From a virus: a DNA stretch of 36,337 nucleotides. Shown here piece by piece: positions 1-20,646 of this stretch. Positions within the stretch are counted from its first letter, which is position 1, and the number at the start of each line of letters is the position of its first letter. Below the pieces are notes generated by a model. The model ran no database searches and was not told the origin of the DNA. It saw only the letters and a program-made list of their open reading frames with translations. The stretch lies in the IMG/VR virus record IMGVR_UViG_3300050137_000015, positions 1 through 36,337 of that record, one strand, 5' to 3'. The position numbers and the translations under genes were made by a program.

Positions 1-435
1 TCGTCTTCTTTGCTTATGTATTTCAGTGGAAACGCCACTAAAACTCCCTTAGACCAAACAGCGACAGGGGGGAATACAGGGAACAGCACTTCGCTGACGT
101 TGACTACAGGAGGGACCGACGCCGCCGCCGGCGAGTTAGTGCTCCTAGTGCTGGGCGCGATTAGCGGTAAATCGACCGGCGCGATGGTTATCGGCTCGCA
201 AAACAACGGACTGTCCCTCACCATCACTTCGACCGTGGCCGCCGCGCAAGTCGCTCGCGGGACTACGACTGGCAACAGCGTGGCAGATTCGGTGTCCGCG
301 TACATTACTCACTCCGGCGTTGGTACGCAGGCGCAGAACGGGGTGCTGGCTTCGTTCAAACTTAGCAGCGGGGTAACGTTTACCGTCATCCCCATTTCTC
401 GTGGCCGCTGGTTCTTCGGTTCGGAGGCGGCGTGA
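1..435 (+). CDS. Partial tail/adhesin-type structural protein (5' end outside window)
   Basis: The frame is open from base 1, so the gene is truncated by the window edge; the TTG at 10 is probably internal. The visible ~144 residues are rich in Thr, Ser, Gly and Ala, with alternating hydrophobic stretches such as GELVLLVLGA, typical of beta-sandwich modules in phage tail fibres. The same style (a GD/GE-L-hydrophobic strand after a Ser/Thr-rich strand) occurs in the first ~200 residues of the large tail protein starting at 5194 and in the small protein at 4839. The gene ends in a GGAGG-containing stretch (423-427) that serves as ribosome-binding site for the ATG at 435. The virion role is inferred from composition and position; no specific family is recognised. 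Confidence 0.6.
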   Translation, partial: SSSLLMYFSGNATKTPLDQTATGGNTGNSTSLTLTTGGTDAAAGELVLLVLGAISGKSTGAMVIGSQNNGLSLTITSTVAAAQVARGTTTGNSVADSVSAYITHSGVGTQAQNGVLASFKLSSGVTFTVIPISRGRWFFGSEAA

Positions 436-839
436 TGCGCCTTCACCTCGTCGGACTCCCCCACACCGAACTAACCGATGAGTTCAGTTGGTACAGTGAA
501 TGTATGAGGACTGGCCGACCCCCTACTCCAGCGGATCAGCGGTTCTGGCTAAAGGTTCACAAGAAGGGGCTTGGGGGATGTTGGCTCTGGCTGGCCACTA
601 AAGACAGTCACGGCTACGGTGTATTTGCCATAGTCAAGGAGAAACGACATCGTTGCGTCGGCGCGCATCGGTGGGCCTACGAGAGGCTTGTCGCCCCAAT
701 TCCGCAGGGCTTAGTCATCGATCACCTGTGTCGTGTGCGCCACTGCGTAAACCCTACTCACATGGAAATAGTCTCTGTTCGCGAGAACACACTTCGCGGC
801 GTCGGCATCACGGCTCAGTACGCGCGACGCAGCCAATGA
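435..839 (+). CDS. HNH endonuclease fused to a duplicated glycosyltransferase N-terminus
   Basis: 134 residues from the ATG at 435, preceded by a good GGAGG. Residues ~1-19 (MRLHLVGLPHTE...SW) repeat the start of the glycosyltransferase at 836. The HNH protein proper begins near residue 24 (MRTGRPPTPADQRFW, ATG 504). It has the usual features: GCWLWL, AHRWAYE (H79), the IDHLCR core (D97, H98) and CVNPTH. Family knowledge: such proteins are Mg-dependent DNA nickers or nucleases and often mobile. A TACAGT hexamer 6 nt before ATG 504 may give independent leaderless expression. The stop overlaps the next start (ATGA, 836-839). The nuclease call is strong; which start is used is uncertain. Confidence 0.85.
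   Translation: MRLHLVGLPHTELTDEFSWYSECMRTGRPPTPADQRFWLKVHKKGLGGCWLWLATKDSHGYGVFAIVKEKRHRCVGAHRWAYERLVAPIPQGLVIDHLCRVRHCVNPTHMEIVSVRENTLRGVGITAQYARRSQ
492..503 (+). promoter_or_regulatory. Putative leaderless -10 element for the HNH gene
   Basis: TACAGT (492-497, fits TANNNT) lies 6 nt before ATG 504, with no Shine-Dalgarno between. Weak alone, but the same geometry precedes the HNH starts at 8380, 16964 and 20646. Confidence 0.3.
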
Positions 840-1843
840 GACTCCATCTAGTCGGGCTGCCCCACACTGAGTTCACGGATTCCTACAGCTGGTGCGCGTT
901 TACGGCCCTCGGACTTACGTTTTCTACCATGATGACCCAACAAGGGCATGAAGTCATTCTCTACGGAGGCGAGCGTACCGACGCGGAATGCTCGGAGTTC
1001 GTTGCCTGTCATGGTCCGGTCAGCACGGAGTTTCACGTACCCGAGTGGACGCAGGACTACTTCTCTAACATGAACGACCGAGTGATACACGAGATGCGCG
1101 AGCGCATTCGCCCCGGTGATTTCATTCTTCTGTCGATGGGGGTCTGTCAGCTACCAATTCAATACGCCTTCCCCAACAACGTCTGCGTCGAGTACTGCGT
1201 TGGCTACGGTGGGTCGACGGCACCGGCACGAGTCTTTCCTAGCGAGGCGTGGCGACACATCATCTACGGGCACCGGGCAGAGAACGTCATGGTCATCCGA
1301 GGAATGTGCACCGATGCGGTAATCCCGCATTTCCTGGACCCGACTAAGTTCCCCGAAGGTAAAGGCGGGGGGTACCTGTTGTTCATGGGCAGGCACGGGT
1401 CGCTGAAGGGCGAGGAGGTTGCCTTACAAGTTGCTGAAGAGACCGGCTTTGAACTTATCGACATCGGACCCGGAGGCAAGGTCGTTGGTCCGAAGGAGCG
1501 CGCGGATTTGATGGGTGGGGCCAGGGCAGTCTTAACCCCGAGTATGTTTCCCGAGCCGTTCTGCCTGGTAGCCATCGAAGCCCAGATGTGCGGGACGCCC
1601 GTGCTTACCACGGATTGGGGTGCGTTCACCGAGACCGTCTCGCAGGGAGAATCCGGCTTCAGGTGCTCCACTATTCCTGAGTTCGTGGAGTCCGCGAAGA
1701 AGATTGGCGAACTTGACAGGAACCTGGTACGCGAGCGGGCGCTCTCTCTCTACTCCACCGACGCCATTGGTCCTCAGTACGAGCGGTTTTTCCAACGTCT
1801 TAAGGTAATCTATCCGGAGAGGTTTCCAGAAGGGGTGGTGTGA
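836..1843 (+). CDS. Glycosyltransferase, GT4-like (group 1)
   Basis: 335 residues from ATG 836 (MRLHLVGLPHTEFTDSYSW). The frame stays open further upstream, but that extension is antisense-like and overlaps the HNH gene. Residues ~180-300 form the C-terminal Rossmann half of a GT-B enzyme: YLLFMGRHGSLKG, then FPEPFCLVAIEA, an intact EX7E-type motif (E240/E248), and MCGTPVLTTDWGAFTE. Family knowledge: retaining sugar transfer from a nucleotide-sugar. Substrate is unknown; virion proteins, phage DNA or host cell-wall glycans are possible. No Shine-Dalgarno precedes 836, so translation likely depends on coupling to the HNH stop (ATGA). The native ribosome-binding site seems to remain in front of the duplicated 5' end at 435. 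Confidence 0.85.
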   Translation: MRLHLVGLPHTEFTDSYSWCAFTALGLTFSTMMTQQGHEVILYGGERTDAECSEFVACHGPVSTEFHVPEWTQDYFSNMNDRVIHEMRERIRPGDFILLSMGVCQLPIQYAFPNNVCVEYCVGYGGSTAPARVFPSEAWRHIIYGHRAENVMVIRGMCTDAVIPHFLDPTKFPEGKGGGYLLFMGRHGSLKGEEVALQVAEETGFELIDIGPGGKVVGPKERADLMGGARAVLTPSMFPEPFCLVAIEAQMCGTPVLTTDWGAFTETVSQGESGFRCSTIPEFVESAKKIGELDRNLVRERALSLYSTDAIGPQYERFFQRLKVIYPERFPEGVV

Positions 1844-2163
1844 TGGTCTCCCAATATGACACGCTCAACCCGTACGATGGACTTAGCCTTTACGACACAG
1901 GCGGAGGAATAGTAATCGTGGCGAATACCGACGTAGGCTGGCAAGCGGTCCTCAATCAACTAGCGGGGACCAAGAACCTGGGCGAGAACGCGGCGGCCAA
2001 TGCCTACGCCGGGACTTCGAACCTGGGGATACTCGCAGCACTCAATACAAAAGCCGGTACGAATCACAACGACATCAACCTTGTGTGCAATGAAATTGCG
2101 GGGACCACCGGGCTTGAGGCTCTGGCAGCCCTCAATCTCAAAGCAGGCAACAGCCGCCCATGA
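1843..2163 (+). CDS. Small 15-residue-repeat structural protein
   Basis: 106 residues from ATG 1843 (TGATG overlap with the preceding stop; a GTG at 1840 is possible). Residues 41-100 are four consecutive 15-residue repeats of the pattern AGTxxLxxxAAxNxx: 41-55, 56-70, 71-85 and 86-100. The third copy is most diverged and holds the only Cys. The protein is Ala/Asn/Gly-rich with one Trp near residue 33. Similar short repeat proteins occur near tail genes in actinophage-like genomes (recollection, unsearched). The repeat suggests a solenoid or tail-decoration role. It lies between two glycosyltransferases, so it could be a glycan acceptor, but that is speculation. Confidence 0.65.
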   Translation: MVSQYDTLNPYDGLSLYDTGGGIVIVANTDVGWQAVLNQLAGTKNLGENAAANAYAGTSNLGILAALNTKAGTNHNDINLVCNEIAGTTGLEALAALNLKAGNSRP

Positions 2164-2516
2164 CCACGAGGGATATTCCAGTCGAATCAATCTACGAATC
2201 TCACACCGGTCAGCACACTGACTGTCCACCTTGTTTCGCAATCAAACTGAGAACCGTGCAATTCCAAGGGATGGAAGCTGGACAGCACCGCTTCACGGAT
2301 AAAGAACGTGACAGGGATCTCCGCGAATATAAGAAACTCAGGCAGCAGGGCTACCAGCCCCGGAATGTCTTCGGCTCCGCTGAACTCGCCGCCCAAGCCC
2401 ATTCATCCTTTGAAGTGGAACACAAGGTAGTCATGGCACCAAATATCCGCAAGGAGATGGAGTCCCAGATGAACGCTGCTAAAGAGATGTTGGGCGTTCC
2501 GGAGGGACTGAAGTAA
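2160..2516 (+). CDS. Hypothetical phage protein, charged
   Basis: 118 residues, ATGA overlap with the previous stop (2160-2163). The N-terminus has a CPPC motif around residues 22-25 in a His-containing context. The middle is highly charged (DKERDRDLREYKKLRQQGY) and probably helical, and the C-terminus looks amphipathic. The end overlaps the next start (TAATG at 2514-2518). No family recognised. Its place between a repeat protein and a glycosyltransferase in a coupled operon suggests a late, virion-associated role. Confidence 0.6.
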   Translation: MTTRDIPVESIYESHTGQHTDCPPCFAIKLRTVQFQGMEAGQHRFTDKERDRDLREYKKLRQQGYQPRNVFGSAELAAQAHSSFEVEHKVVMAPNIRKEMESQMNAAKEMLGVPEGLK

Positions 2517-3946
2517 TGGCTCGTTTAAACCTACTTTATGTTCACAATGACCAGTTAGGGTATGGACGATTAGGAGTTTGTCTTGCAGCCGCCGTGAAGC
2601 GTGCGGGTGTGGAAATCTTCGATGACCTCCCGAACCCTCAAGGCTCTGACGCTCAGAAGTTCATCCCTCACACCAACGGCAGAACTGGAGTGTGCGCTCA
2701 CGCTTCTTGGGTTTCAACTCCAGGACATTACCGAGGCAGATGGGAGGGTCAGAGCGCATCCATCCTGACGATGTGGGAATCGAACCTTTTGCCTGAACCC
2801 TTTAGGGAGTCGTTGGATGTCTTCGATACCATCGTCGTCCCCAGCCAGCAGAACCAGGAACTGTTTTCTCGCTACCACAACAACGTAAAATTCGTTCCTC
2901 TCGGCATTGACCCGACTGAATGGTTCCCGGTGGAGCGCCCGAAGTTAGACCCGGAATACTTCACCTTCCTCATCTCTGGTGGTGGCCATCGCAAAGGCTC
3001 AGACCTCGTAATCAAAGCATTCCGTAAGGTGTTCGATGGTCGTGTCCCTGATGGCCCTCGTCCACGTCTATTCCTCCACTCAGCCAAGCGAGACGAGACG
3101 CCCAACGATGACCGCATTGAACTCATCACCGGCAAGTTGGACCCGTATGAAGAGCGTGCGTTCTACGCCATGTGCCACGTCTACGTCCAGCCGTCCAGGG
3201 GTGAGGGATTTGGGCTACGTCCCTTGCAGGCCATGGCGCAGGGCATGCCAACGATTGCCACCAACGCTCACGGCCATGCCGCGTTTGGGGACCTAATTAC
3301 CTACCCGCTGGGGTTCTCACTACAGGAAACTCCGCCCCAAGCATTCCATCACGGCCCCGCAGGTTCATGGTGGGAGCCGGACTTCGATGAACTGTGTCTC
3401 GCGATGGAAGACGCCTATCTCAACTACGACAAAGCGGTATTCAGGGCACGCGTCAACGCCGAAGTCATTGGCCGAGAGTTCACCTGGGATGAGACGGCAC
3501 GGAAATACCTCGATGCAATAGGCCGAGAGAACCTAGAACTTCCTGACGTAGAACCGGTGACGTGGTTGGAACCCACACCCCGTCGTTACCTGGTGCGCTC
3601 GATTAAACCTCATTTATTTGAAGTCGGGGGATTGCAGTACAGAATTGAGCCGGGAAAGGACTACTGGGAACCTGCGGACGTGAAGCGCGTCCTCTTCGAT
3701 GCAGGATTGTTGGACCTTTCTTGCCTGCCTCAGAACATGATGGTGAACGGTGATGCGGAAGACGGTGCGCCGAACATGGTTCTCTTGGAATCCGGTCTCA
3801 CCCCGGAGCAGTTTGAACGCATACCGAACTATTCCGCTTCTCATGCTCTCTGTATCACCTGCGGGCAAAAGTTGAATACGAATAATCCCACGCTTGAAGA
3901 GGTTGAGGCAATGCCAATGCCAAGGGAGAGCGCGTGGCAACTTTAG
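2516..3946 (+). CDS. Glycosyltransferase, GT4-like, with C-terminal extension
   Basis: 476 residues. Residues ~1-130 are the N-terminal GT-B half, with a SILTMWESN segment and FVPLGIDPTEW at the interdomain link. Residues ~148-330 are the nucleotide-sugar-binding half: FLISGGGHRKGSDL, then RGEGFGLRPLQAMAQGMP. The EX7E-type motif has Gln (Q238) where the second Glu is usual, so activity or donor choice could differ. Residues ~350-476 are an extra domain without a recognised family, including a CITC pair near the end. The strand-coupled start (TAATG) places it in the tail operon. Family assignment is firm; substrate unknown. It is the second glycosyltransferase of the cluster and not a close copy of the first. 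Confidence 0.88.
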   Translation: MARLNLLYVHNDQLGYGRLGVCLAAAVKRAGVEIFDDLPNPQGSDAQKFIPHTNGRTGVCAHASWVSTPGHYRGRWEGQSASILTMWESNLLPEPFRESLDVFDTIVVPSQQNQELFSRYHNNVKFVPLGIDPTEWFPVERPKLDPEYFTFLISGGGHRKGSDLVIKAFRKVFDGRVPDGPRPRLFLHSAKRDETPNDDRIELITGKLDPYEERAFYAMCHVYVQPSRGEGFGLRPLQAMAQGMPTIATNAHGHAAFGDLITYPLGFSLQETPPQAFHHGPAGSWWEPDFDELCLAMEDAYLNYDKAVFRARVNAEVIGREFTWDETARKYLDAIGRENLELPDVEPVTWLEPTPRRYLVRSIKPHLFEVGGLQYRIEPGKDYWEPADVKRVLFDAGLLDLSCLPQNMMVNGDAEDGAPNMVLLESGLTPEQFERIPNYSASHALCITCGQKLNTNNPTLEEVEAMPMPRESAWQL

Positions 3947-4839
3947 GTTCTATGATCAGTCAAACTCTCCGCAGGGTGCAGCCGGGTCAACAGGTAGAAG
4001 CCCTGACGCTCAATGGCTCTTACACCGCTGGCGCAACGTCCTTAGTAGTCTCCGACCCCGCCGGAACCATCCTTCCCTCCCTGCGCCCTGAGACAGTCTG
4101 CGCCATCGACCTGGAACTCTTCTACGTCCAAGCCGTGAGTGGAACGACAGTCACGGTTGTACCCGGCTACCTAGGCTCAACCACCGCCAACCATTCCTCG
4201 GGGGCGATGGTCTACCTCAACCCTCGCTTCAGCGCCTTTGACATCATGCAGGCAATCAATGATGACTTGAACGACCTATGTTCACCAGAGAACAATCTCT
4301 ACCAGGTCAGTTCAGTGGAGATAACCTACAACCCCGCGACCGTGGGCTACGACCTCACCGGGGTGACGGGCTTAATCGACATCCTCAGCATCCAGCAGAA
4401 GCAGCCCTACCCCATTGGCTACTGGGTGCCCTTCCCCCGCAAGAAGTGGACCTTGACCGCGGGCGCTGATACCACCGTGTTCCCTTCCGGCTACGCCCTG
4501 CGTCTGAATGAAGGCGGCTATCCCGGTATGCCGTTCCGCGTCACGTACAAATCCCAGTTCGCGCCATTTGTCAATCTCACGGACGACGCGACGACCGTCT
4601 GCGGTCTGTCCTCCACCATGTACGACTTACCTCCGTTGGGTGCGATGGTGGCGATTGTCGCTCCGCGTGAAGTGAAGCGCAACCAGATCGACTCAGCCCC
4701 AGACTCGCGTAGGGCCACGGAAGTCCCGCCCGGTGCGGTGATGAACTCCGTCGCGCAGGTCCTTGCTTTAAGGCAGCGCCGTATCAACGCCGAAGCCTCT
4801 CGTCTGCACCAGTTGTATGGAAGTCAAGCCGGTAGATAG
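3934..4839 (+). CDS. Virion structural protein (tail/neck-type)
   Basis: 301 residues starting at GTG 3934, chosen because of the AAGGGAGAG stretch about 5 nt upstream; it overlaps the glycosyltransferase end by 13 nt. Residues ~20-95 form a beta-rich segment (GATSLVVSDP, DLELFYVQAVSGTTVTVVPGYLGST, then NPRFSAFDIMQAINDDLNDL). I associate this arrangement with conserved structural proteins of siphovirus and podovirus actinophages. The C-terminus is helical and basic (VLALRQRRINAEASRLHQ). A connector or tail-tube-adaptor role is plausible. The structural call rests on pattern memory and context. Confidence 0.65.
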   Translation: MATLGSMISQTLRRVQPGQQVEALTLNGSYTAGATSLVVSDPAGTILPSLRPETVCAIDLELFYVQAVSGTTVTVVPGYLGSTTANHSSGAMVYLNPRFSAFDIMQAINDDLNDLCSPENNLYQVSSVEITYNPATVGYDLTGVTGLIDILSIQQKQPYPIGYWVPFPRKKWTLTAGADTTVFPSGYALRLNEGGYPGMPFRVTYKSQFAPFVNLTDDATTVCGLSSTMYDLPPLGAMVAIVAPREVKRNQIDSAPDSRRATEVPPGAVMNSVAQVLALRQRRINAEASRLHQLYGSQAGR

Positions 4840-5147
4840 TGGCGATCTCTGCCGTAGGTTCGTTGGCGGTCTCTAATCAACTCACTACTCTTGCGGTCAG
4901 TCCAACAGCCACCGGTGACATTCTGGTGCTCTTGGCCAACGGCCGGTTAGGCAACAATATTACGGGTGTCTCGGGAGGCGGCGCAACGCACAACATCAAC
5001 ATCTCGCCCGGGGCCATCGTCATCAATCCCGCACCCGGGAATGACGCGGCCTCACTCGCGCAGACTCACGTCATGGTCGAGGACGCCCTAGATCAGTTGC
5101 TAAGTGAGTACCTGGCGGGCTCTACACCGTTGACGGCGGCGGGATAA
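4839..5147 (+). CDS. Small chimeric tail-associated protein
   Basis: 102 residues from GTG 4839, overlapping the preceding TAG by one base. Residues ~1-47 (SAVGSLAVSNQLTTLAVSP, then GDILVLLANG) look like the first strands of the beta module found at 5194, but the module stops at GVSGGGATH. Residues ~50-102 switch to INISPGAIVINPAPGND followed by an amphipathic helix (VMVEDALDQLLSEYL). It could be a truncated fibre module joined to an oligomerising tail. The following 15-codon ORF is coupled through TAATGA. Confidence 0.6.
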   Translation: MAISAVGSLAVSNQLTTLAVSPTATGDILVLLANGRLGNNITGVSGGGATHNINISPGAIVINPAPGNDAASLAQTHVMVEDALDQLLSEYLAGSTPLTAAG

Positions 5148-8379: not shown

Positions 8380-8925
8380 ATGTCAAAAACCCTCATACAA
8401 AGACTGGCAAACAAGTTCACAATTGGCGATGATTGTTGGGAGTGGACCGCGTGTAAGGGACGGGGATATGGAATCGTTATGTGCGAAGACAAGGTGAACC
8501 GTATCGCTCATCGGGTTATCTACCAGCTTCTCGTCGGGCCAGTCCCAAAGGAACTGCAACTAGATCACCTGTGTCGGAATCGAGGATGCGTCAAACCTTC
8601 TCATCTCGAACCAGTAACCGCGAAGGTGAATATCAATCGCGGGCGCAAGGCTAACGCCGAGAAAACCCACTGCAAGAACGGACATCCGTTTAACGACGAG
8701 AATACGCGCCGAAGTGTCAGGAAGAACGGACGCCAACGCCGGGACTGCCTTTCATGCGAACGTTCGAAGAACGTTGGACCCAAACCTCTCCCTACTCACT
8801 GCAAGAACGGCCACGAGTACATGCCTGAGAATATCTACATGACCACGGACAATGCGCGTGCATGTCGCATCTGTAGACAACAATGGATGCGTGACTTCTA
8901 TGCCAGAAAGAAAGCTCTAGCATGA
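8380..8925 (+). CDS. HNH endonuclease with tandem zinc modules
   Basis: 181 residues. Residues ~19-80 carry the HNH fold: CWEWTACKGRGYG, AHRVIYQLL, LDHLCRNRGC (D62, H63) and CVKPSHLEP. Two consecutive Cys/His modules follow, each CKNGH then a CxxC: C98, H102, C123, C126 and C141, H145, C162, C165. The related HNH gene at 20221-20646 has only one such module. Family knowledge: phage HNH enzymes are often homing nucleases, and the extra zinc modules probably bind DNA. It separates the tail protein from the lysis peptidase and overlaps the latter by ATGA, so it likely arrived as an insertion. Confidence 0.9.
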   Translation: MSKTLIQRLANKFTIGDDCWEWTACKGRGYGIVMCEDKVNRIAHRVIYQLLVGPVPKELQLDHLCRNRGCVKPSHLEPVTAKVNINRGRKANAEKTHCKNGHPFNDENTRRSVRKNGRQRRDCLSCERSKNVGPKPLPTHCKNGHEYMPENIYMTTDNARACRICRQQWMRDFYARKKALA

Positions 8926-15986: not shown

Positions 15987-16282
15987 AAAAGTGCGAGCGC
16001 TGCAACGGCTGTGGGATGCTTCAGAGTTGGTACGGCGAGGATTGTTCCGACTGCGGCGGTACGGGAGAGGTTGACGATTTGGCCTCTCTCAATGAAGGGG
16101 TGGGGGGAATGAGCGAAGAACTGATCTCACGCGAGGAGGCGGTTGCGGCGTTGGACGTTAATCTCGCTGATTGCCGCGATTGTCAACTAGGCGTGGAGTA
16201 TTGCCCCGTGTGCGATGGAATAAGAGTCGCGAAAGAAGTTCTCAAATCTTTGTCCACCCGTCTACCCCCGGAGAGCGAATGA
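15983..16282 (+). CDS. Zinc-ribbon protein, DnaJ-type CxxCxG repeats
   Basis: 99 residues, ATGA overlap. Residues ~4-30 (CERCNGCG, CSDCGGTGEV) look like half of a DnaJ cysteine-rich domain. A second Cys cluster (CRDCQLGVEYCPVC) lies near residues 64-77. An internal ATG at 16109 with a G-rich leader could start a shorter product (MSEELISREEAVAALD), so this may be two proteins or a fusion. The 'ISR' start also occurs near ATG 15549, hinting at shared origin. Function unknown; nucleic-acid or protein binding likely. Confidence 0.55.
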   Translation: MKKCERCNGCGMLQSWYGEDCSDCGGTGEVDDLASLNEGVGGMSEELISREEAVAALDVNLADCRDCQLGVEYCPVCDGIRVAKEVLKSLSTRLPPESE

Positions 16283-17004
16283 GGATACTTGATCTGTTCT
16301 GCGGTGCCGGAGGCGCGGCGACGGGGTACTCACGCGCTGGGTTTGAAGTGTTCGGGGTGGACATCAACCCTCAGCCGAACTATCCGTTTGAGTTCGTGCA
16401 GGCTGACGCACTTACCTATTTAAGAGACTTTACAGACCACATCGGCTTCCGTTTTCACGCGATTCACGCATCTCCCCCCTGCCAGGCGTATTCAATCACA
16501 AAGCACACGCACGGAGTCCAGCACCCCGACCTGCTCGGCCCGACTCGCGAACTCCTAATCGCCGCCAACGTGCCCTACATCATCGAGAATGTGGTGGGTG
16601 CTTACATGCCAGGTTCGGTAATCTGCTGCGGGTCAGACCTTTGTAGTCATGTTAGGGACAACGATGGGGTAGACCTCTTCCTGAAACGCCACCGACAATT
16701 TGAGTCGAACATCGAACTTGAGGGCTCAGCGTGTTTCTGTATCTCGAATAAGGTCCTTGGCATGAAGATCGGGGGCGTCTACGGCGGCGGTTCGCGAGAC
16801 AGAGCATGGGCTGAGAACGTCAGGCACGGCGGCTACACACCCTCAAAAACCATTCAGGAAAAGCTAATGGGCATCGACTGGATGACGCAGAAGGAACTGA
16901 ATCAGGCCATCCCTCCCGCCTACACAGAATACATAGGGTTACAGTTGATGGCATACTTAGAGAATGGAAAAACCGCTGAGAATATGCAAGGTAGAGAACT
17001 GTGA
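16279..17004 (+). CDS. C5-cytosine DNA methyltransferase
   Basis: 241 residues from ATG 16279 (GGAGAG upstream, ATGA overlap). Motif [21 protein letters not shown] at ~3-22, motif [11 protein letters not shown] (catalytic Cys), motif [11 protein letters not shown], motif [13 protein letters not shown], then a recognition segment and [15 protein letters not shown] (motif IX/X). Shorter than bacterial Dcm-type enzymes, as usual for phage ones. It probably methylates phage DNA against host restriction. No partner restriction enzyme is seen. Its C-terminal segment after QLM ([17 protein letters not shown]) overlaps the following HNH gene, and an alternative copy of the motif X end lies beyond that gene (17343-17408). 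Confidence 0.93.
16952..16963 (+). promoter_or_regulatory. Putative leaderless -10 for the HNH gene
   Basis: CATACT (16952-16957) ends 6 nt before ATG 16964, with no Shine-Dalgarno. Weak alone, but the spacing matches the other HNH genes. Confidence 0.25.
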
Positions 17005-17350
17005 ACGAAAACATGCGGCTCACGGGCTGTGCCTCATCCACTACAAAATGCAGCGAGAGCGCGGGACCACTGAACCATTTGTCCGCACTCGAAAGGACTA
17101 CACCGACCCACGTGGCTACGTCCGGCGCTATGTGGATGGGAGACGCCAGGGGCAGCTTGTCCATCGCCTCGTCATGGAAGAACACATCGGACGCGACCTT
17201 CGACCTAGCGAAACGGTCCATCACCGCAACGGCATCAGGAACGACAACAGAATCGAGAACCTGGAACTGTGGGCGAGCGTCCAGCCGCGCGGCCAACGGA
17301 TTGAGGACTTGCTTGCCTTCGCGCATGAAGTCATCGAAATGTACGGCTGA
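16964..17350 (+). CDS. HNH endonuclease with N-terminal zinc ribbon
   Basis: 128 residues. N-terminal zinc motif [20 protein letters not shown] (C8, C13, C23, H26). HNH core [15 protein letters not shown], then [20 protein letters not shown] (H86, H87, N89, N94). Different HNH type from the CW.W group at 435, 8380 and 20646. It overlaps the methyltransferase 3' end by 41 nt. The bases after its stop re-encode a methyltransferase-like C-terminus. This placement points to an insertion at the gene end. Confidence 0.9.
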
Positions 17351-20220: not shown

Positions 20221-20646
20221 CTACAAACTCTGTGAAACGTCTGTGAGTTGTATCAAATCGCTGACAACTTTTTGTCGTTGTCGCCAGTTTCTAACCTGGA
20301 TCACTCGACACTTTCGACACGCTGGACGACCGTTAGTCAACACGTACGTGTTTTTCTCGTCGTATGCGTGACCGTGCTTACATTCGGTTTTAAACGGTCT
20401 GCGACGCACATTGTCGCCCTGTGTCACTGGCTCTAAGTGATCTGGGTTCACACATCGTCTATTGCGACACAAATGGTCGATTGTTAAGCCTTCTGGTATT
20501 GGACCGACTAAGAGCTCATACGCAAAACGATGTGCGTAACCAACTTTGGCGTTGTAACCTATTCGACCGTATCCGGCATCATTGAGCGCACCAAGCCAAT
20601 TCCAACAGGTTTCAGTTTTTTCTACCTTGCGCCAGAATCTTTCCAT
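20221..20646 (-). CDS. HNH endonuclease with one zinc module
   Basis: 141 residues. MERFWRKVEKTETCWNWLG, AHRFAYELLVGPIPEG, TIDHLCRNRRC (D57, H58) and CVNPDHLEPVT form the HNH core. A C-terminal CKHGH ... CRKC module follows (C89, H93, C110, C113). Close in type to the HNH proteins at 435 and 8380. It heads the leftward block. No Shine-Dalgarno, but GATAAT lies just upstream. The gap to the next leftward gene is 51 bp. Confidence 0.9.
   Translation of the reverse strand: MERFWRKVEKTETCWNWLGALNDAGYGRIGYNAKVGYAHRFAYELLVGPIPEGLTIDHLCRNRRCVNPDHLEPVTQGDNVRRRPFKTECKHGHAYDEKNTYVLTNGRPACRKCRVIQVRNWRQRQKVVSDLIQLTDVSQSL

Follow-up and report, generated by a model that had tools for sequence, protein, structure and literature searches.

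The window, by which we mean the whole stretch of DNA analysed here, is the 36,337-base IMG/VR virus record IMGVR_UViG_3300050137_000015. Its first features, compiled in Table 1, are an upstream open reading frame (ORF) with no match in Pfam or PHROG, an HNH endonuclease gene preceded by a short in-frame leader, and a complete glycosyltransferase (GT) gene. The ORF that begins at position 435 has 134 codons and encodes MRLHLVGLPHTELTDEFSWYSEC followed by the HNH protein from MRTGRPP (ATG504). The GT has 335 residues and begins MRLHLVGLPHTEFTDSYSWC, and its match to phrog_3408 runs from residue 1. The GGAGG that the first-pass annotation placed in front of the first of two copies of the GT start is retained there and is probably the original GT ribosome site. 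At the ATG of the intact GT, no comparable Shine-Dalgarno sequence is seen, and this start overlaps the HNH stop. Of the earlier proposal that the GT now relies on the HNH stop for its translation, the ATGA overlap and the missing ribosome site are confirmed, and the translational coupling itself is what we infer from them.

Table 1. Features at the start of the window (positions are those of the window).
Feature	Position	Strand	Remarks
Upstream ORF	1..435	+	cut at window start; stop TGA 433-435 overlaps ATG435 of the stub
GGAGG, Shine-Dalgarno-like	423..427	+	direct reading; 7 nt before ATG435
Stub, 20-codon putative leftover of the GT start (MRLHLVGLPHTELTDEFSWY)	435..494	+	in frame with HNH
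Junction codons SEC (three)	495..503	+	no match to GT
HNH endonuclease gene	504..839	+	likely own start ATG504; stop TGA 837-839
HNH_3 domain	about 660-791	+	within the HNH gene
Shortened HNH end	806..839	+	without Cys-rich tail
ATGA	836..839	+	HNH stop overlapping GT start
Second, putative replacement copy of the GT start	836..895	+	codons differ, protein little changed
Complete GT	836..1843	+	phrog_3408; Glycos_transf_1

The endonuclease is recognised by HNH_3 (E=2e-11; 43.7 bits, cut-off 24.8) and by phrog_826 (E=1e-34), and its relatives align from about residue 22-24 of the window ORF, i.e. after the stub. A Cys-rich C-terminal tail, which is common in this group of HNH proteins rather than definitive of it (271 of 278 related ORFs), is absent from the window HNH, and for this reason the protein may be inactive or past its active life. 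The window contains three further HNH genes, at 8380-8925 (+), 16964-17350 (+) and 20221-20646 (-), none with a detectable stub and two with the Cys-rich tail. The start of the one at 16964 overlaps, in a different frame, the last part of ORF 16171-17004, a DNA methyltransferase-like gene.

A search of positions 1-2400 of the window against Rfam for group I intron RNA gave only one weak, sub-threshold chance match, and intron RNA was likewise absent from eight related loci; a group I intron with an endonuclease ORF was ruled out by this absence. A split gene of the mobE/mobA type was also ruled out, since a complete GT ORF follows the HNH. Searching the DNA of positions 1-2400 against phages returned no match, and a contig that overlaps positions 400-5000 from about 3835 on, with 100% identity, ends before the GT.

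Two diverged copies of the glycosyltransferase start

According to the first-pass annotation, the HNH ORF and the GT share a start pattern in which the codon differences are mostly silent, and both statements hold. In a codon alignment, the stub and the start of the intact GT run without gaps over 20 codons, with 42 of 60 nucleotides identical. Residues 1-19 agree at 16 of 19 positions, and the corresponding codons comprise 6 that are identical, 10 that differ silently and 3 that change the residue. The pair scores 93 with BLOSUM62, whereas 20,000 shuffles averaged -20 and reached at most 37, and an independent search with the GT recovers the short copy (E=2e-6). The stub was not detected by a DNA repeat finder, the two arms being too diverged. 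The similarity had also been said to stop exactly at ATG504; it ends instead at codon 20 (position 494), 9 nt earlier, and the next 9 nt contain 0 matches.

When 17 nucleotide changes were placed at random over codons 2-19, three or fewer residue differences were obtained in 0 of 20,000 trials per copy, and with a transition bias in 0-1 of 20,000. Such a low number of residue changes relative to the base changes indicates that most of the divergence between the stub and the GT start arose under selection at the level of the protein. The two starts would thus have diverged mostly while they were protein-coding, for example in two phage lineages, and not by decay in place. The closest GT relatives share the N-terminal motif HLxxxPHTExTxxYSW, which marks the leader as GT sequence rather than HNH sequence. 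In its composition, the start of the window GT shows no break (GC3 0.75 versus 0.70).

Uninterrupted GT loci, which had been anticipated in relatives, do exist, in L010, in L020/L024 (directly behind an upstream ORF) and in Synechococcus phage S-CAM7, all of them distant viruses. In L001 and L002, the GT is found in one ORF behind a methyltransferase-like domain, which by its appearance is of the FkbM type. The nearest GT relatives are 48-58% identical in protein, the genome collections yielded only distant GT relatives, and a close relative in which the window locus is uninvaded was not found; at this distance, the window alone cannot tell which GT start is the resident one. Two observations had been named as contrary to an insertion, namely a second GT start in relatives that lack the HNH and an HNH family that natively starts with MRLHLVG. 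We sought both: the 13 other GT loci have a single start, and the MRLHLVG leader occurs in none of 338 fetched HNH loci.

The empty site of Malisha and recurrence at other phage genes

In Gordonia phage Malisha (OP434458), the HNH protein gp29 starts MRVVKLRGAGESLGGRNMLSSIAGEDLP, and lysin B, encoded by the gene that follows, starts MTRVYKLRGAGEPLDGRNMLSSIPGHEV. Many Gordonia phages have an uninterrupted lysin B at the position of the Malisha HNH. Among them is Spooky, isolated like Malisha on Gordonia terrae 3612. The two phages are identical in at least 867 nt of upstream sequence and in the first 83 nt of lysin B, beyond which Malisha passes into HNH sequence; the lysin B of Spooky is intact, so Spooky represents the empty site for the Malisha HNH. 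The full lysin B of Malisha is a mosaic: identity to every relative is 62-73% in codons 1-27 (64% with Spooky) but 73-85% in codons 28-170, and the shift, at codon 28, coincides with the insertion point. Over any 9-codon block compared with nine relatives, the maximum identity is 74% in codons 1-27 and 93-100% in codons 28-54. The deficit at the 5' end lies between -0.15 and -0.22 in 8 of the 9 Malisha pairs, with 0.00 against the distant Angelique, and between -0.08 and +0.15 in 36 other pairs. Around the 3' end, the Malisha gene regains near-identity with Spooky, as expected of a conversion tract.

Since the Malisha stub equals the Spooky start and the start of the full copy is divergent, the stub is identified as the resident start and the intact gene as the carrier of an imported one. 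The earlier suggestion that an endonuclease brings with it a diverged copy of the end that it invades is thereby supported. Malisha and Spooky thus display the sporadic occurrence, with an uninterrupted site in a relative, that is expected of a homing endonuclease; for the window, whose uninterrupted GT counterparts lie only in distant viruses, the invasion step is drawn by analogy, since no close relative of the locus was found.

To survey the recurrence of the arrangement, we took 260 distinct phage HNH loci and compared the sequence flanking each HNH with the end of the adjacent gene; 462 non-HNH ORFs of the same loci served as controls. Copies were counted if they scored at least 50, reached the gene terminus and adjoined the HNH. 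Such copies were found at 8 of the 260 HNH loci and at 1 of the 462 control ORFs (Fisher P=0.0016; P=0.0003 with the control paralogue pair set aside), where the P value is indicative, as the threshold and the adjacency criterion were chosen after the first cases had been seen and other matches scoring 50-54, in controls and HNH loci, were excluded by hand as off-ORF or GC-rich and out of frame. The single control that was counted consists of two full-length tandem paralogues in Mycobacterium phage Superphikiman (L018, 4081-4368 and 4649-4954), which encode a small Cys-containing protein that is not related to HNH. Most surveyed HNH genes have no detectable stub, and eight further HNH loci from isolates were checked and have none.

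At the 5' end, the cases scoring at least 50 are the window (GT), Malisha (L015, lysin B), L297 (a BldC-type regulator) and L093, and at the 3' end they are L174, L027, L172 and L063. Further cases, of lower score or read by eye, are L316, L080 and L332. In the 3' cases, an upstream gene with its full C-terminus is followed by an HNH with an overlapping start and then by an orphan C-terminal stub, and stop/start overlaps occur at most junctions among the cases. L297 and L316 are two phage contigs with related HNH genes at the same site of the BldC-type regulator. The BldC genes of both have a GC3 of about 0.5 in their first 27-28 codons and of 0.90 thereafter (P=5e-4 and 1e-4), which supports independently of Malisha the presence of an imported start in the intact gene. 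A GC3 break is also present in the 3' case L172 (P=0.008). The copy on the side of the cassette is the lower in GC3 in 9 of 11 cases (P=0.065), a tendency that is suggestive only. Searches for an empty site found none for L297, L172 and L174. A match of Streptomyces phage Vondra that seemed to extend into the stub of the window was rejected because the similarity was only GC-rich and out of frame.

In L332 (1378-2537), where the upstream gene ends ...SGRADSLVSAKQKAIEASR, the ending of the HNH protein itself is ...SGKADTLNEAKRAALEIAL; judging by these sequences, the HNH has apparently taken over the native tail of the gene as its own C-terminus. In L204 (Clavibacter phage CN1A, 8687-9136), a match to HNH coding sequence lies between CN1A_15 and CN1A_16, partly outside the annotated genes.

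Competing explanations and a proposed mechanism

Phage mosaicism would give an identical static picture in the window if a foreign HNH-GT module had been joined to the resident GT start by illegitimate recombination, cutting by the HNH being irrelevant, and phage HNH genes have been reported at the boundaries of genetic exchange (PMC10448857). However, mosaicism predicts neither that the divergence of Malisha ends at the insertion point nor that the arrangement recurs at both gene ends, in several genes and with stop/start overlaps, and we regard it as an improbable account. Another possible history is that the GT start was duplicated in place, with an HNH later inserted between the copies, which then diverged. 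The second start would then need no donor, and at the window locus, which has no close relative, no direct comparison speaks against it. Yet mostly silent differences misfit a freely decaying duplicate, the stub of Malisha is unchanged with respect to Spooky and its other copy is divergent from all relatives, and no HNH-free GT locus with two starts was found; we consider this history very improbable.

We find it scarcely credible that the leader instead serves the HNH, as a functional segment of its protein or as a translation leader maintained for its expression. In the window, Malisha, L297 and L316, the reading frame of the HNH does extend through the leader without a stop. The leaders nevertheless match the neighbouring gene and vary from gene to gene, L080 and L093 have theirs apart from the HNH, and where a 3' end is copied, the copy is found on the opposite side of the HNH. 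A secondary role of the leader for the HNH is conceivable.

In the explanation that we consider probable, the GT was invaded in its 5' end, after about codon 20, by an HNH homing cassette that brought along a differently coded substitute for the GT start. The HNH would cut an uninvaded GT allele near codon 20, and repair from an HNH-bearing phage would copy the HNH together with the adjoining GT start, the conversion running into the gene, as the mosaic Malisha gene supports. The resident start would be left behind as the stub, which donates its ribosome site and is read in frame with the HNH, and the substitute start would complete the GT, joined to the HNH stop by the ATGA and presumably translated from there. 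The in-frame fusion of the stub to the HNH and the whole GT behind it are read directly from the sequence, whereas cleavage and homing by the window HNH and by its sister cases are inferred. In general terms, the cut would fall at the inner edge of the stub, and the HNH and the replacement end would be imported during repair.

Different coding of the substitute start would make the new junction a poor target for the HNH and would hinder recombination with the stub that deletes the HNH. This protective benefit is only plausible, because the two copies differ in codon choice no more than would be expected from codon usage: 43 of 125 codons are the same between copies against 49.9 expected, and selection for maximal codon difference is not significant (P=0.11).

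Relation to known mobile elements and implications

The proposed cassette would work like the mobile ORFs of fungal mitochondria, which carry a foreign C-terminus in atp6, atp9, cox2 and nad3 of Glomus and in atp6 of Allomyces; there, the inserted and native ends are 64-81% identical in nucleotides and 94-100% in protein, with mostly silent differences, the native end matches that of relatives, and the hybrid gene stays whole (PMC3630166). As in those systems, an endonuclease gene adjoins a duplicated end of the host gene in the window and at the other loci. A native end that equals that of relatives beside a foreign inserted end is found in Malisha as in the fungi; the window has no close relative for this comparison. 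The fungal elements are mitochondrial, encode LAGLIDADG or GIY-YIG enzymes and replace C-terminal ends, whereas here the DNA is that of phages, the nuclease is an HNH and both ends are affected, the N-terminal (5') one in the window and C-terminal ones in L174, L172 and L027. We did not classify the locus as a mobile ORF of the fungal type, given the different nuclease and, for the window, the different end that is replaced. Introns of Tremella have N-terminal duplications (PMC7315562), and there too the element lies inside a gene and the adjacent coding part is duplicated and diverged; these are, however, introns or inserts retained in the cDNA, whereas the present HNH is a free-standing cistron and the search for intron RNA was negative.

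In phages, free-standing homing endonucleases and split genes are known from mobA/gene 60 of T4 and mobE/nrdA of Aeh1 (PMC2988022). They resemble the present case in that a phage endonuclease gene lies within a coding gene and is mobile by break repair with co-conversion of the flanks, but they leave the gene in two pieces, whereas here a second copy of the lost end restores it. The HNH genes of lactococcal Skunavirus are variable and were tested for marker exclusion (PMC12724721). The phage reviews and surveys examined here deal with split genes, with marker exclusion and with nucleases located at boundaries of exchange (PMC2988022, PMC10448857, PMC12724721), and a term search of these three papers found no mention of duplicated or replacement gene ends. 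As far as we found in the open-licence literature, a replacement-end cassette is undescribed in phages, and an earlier report may have been missed.

We conclude that the arrangement in the window is real and that it is an instance of one that recurs in phages and is best explained as an end-replacing homing cassette. More tentatively, it is possible that phage HNHs commonly travel with a differently coded replacement for the end of the gene that they interrupt, at either end. If so, they could enter coding sequence, essential genes included, without an intron or an intein, and many seemingly intergenic, free-standing HNH genes of phages would be insertions inside genes with rewritten ends. Such a cassette would offer a selfish endonuclease a route to occupy coding sequence without destroying the gene, and would explain why phage HNH genes have puzzling leader peptides and why orphan gene tails lie behind HNHs. 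It would predict the cut site of each HNH from the sequence alone, at the inner edge of the stub, and would connect homing in phages with a process known until now from the mitochondria of fungi.
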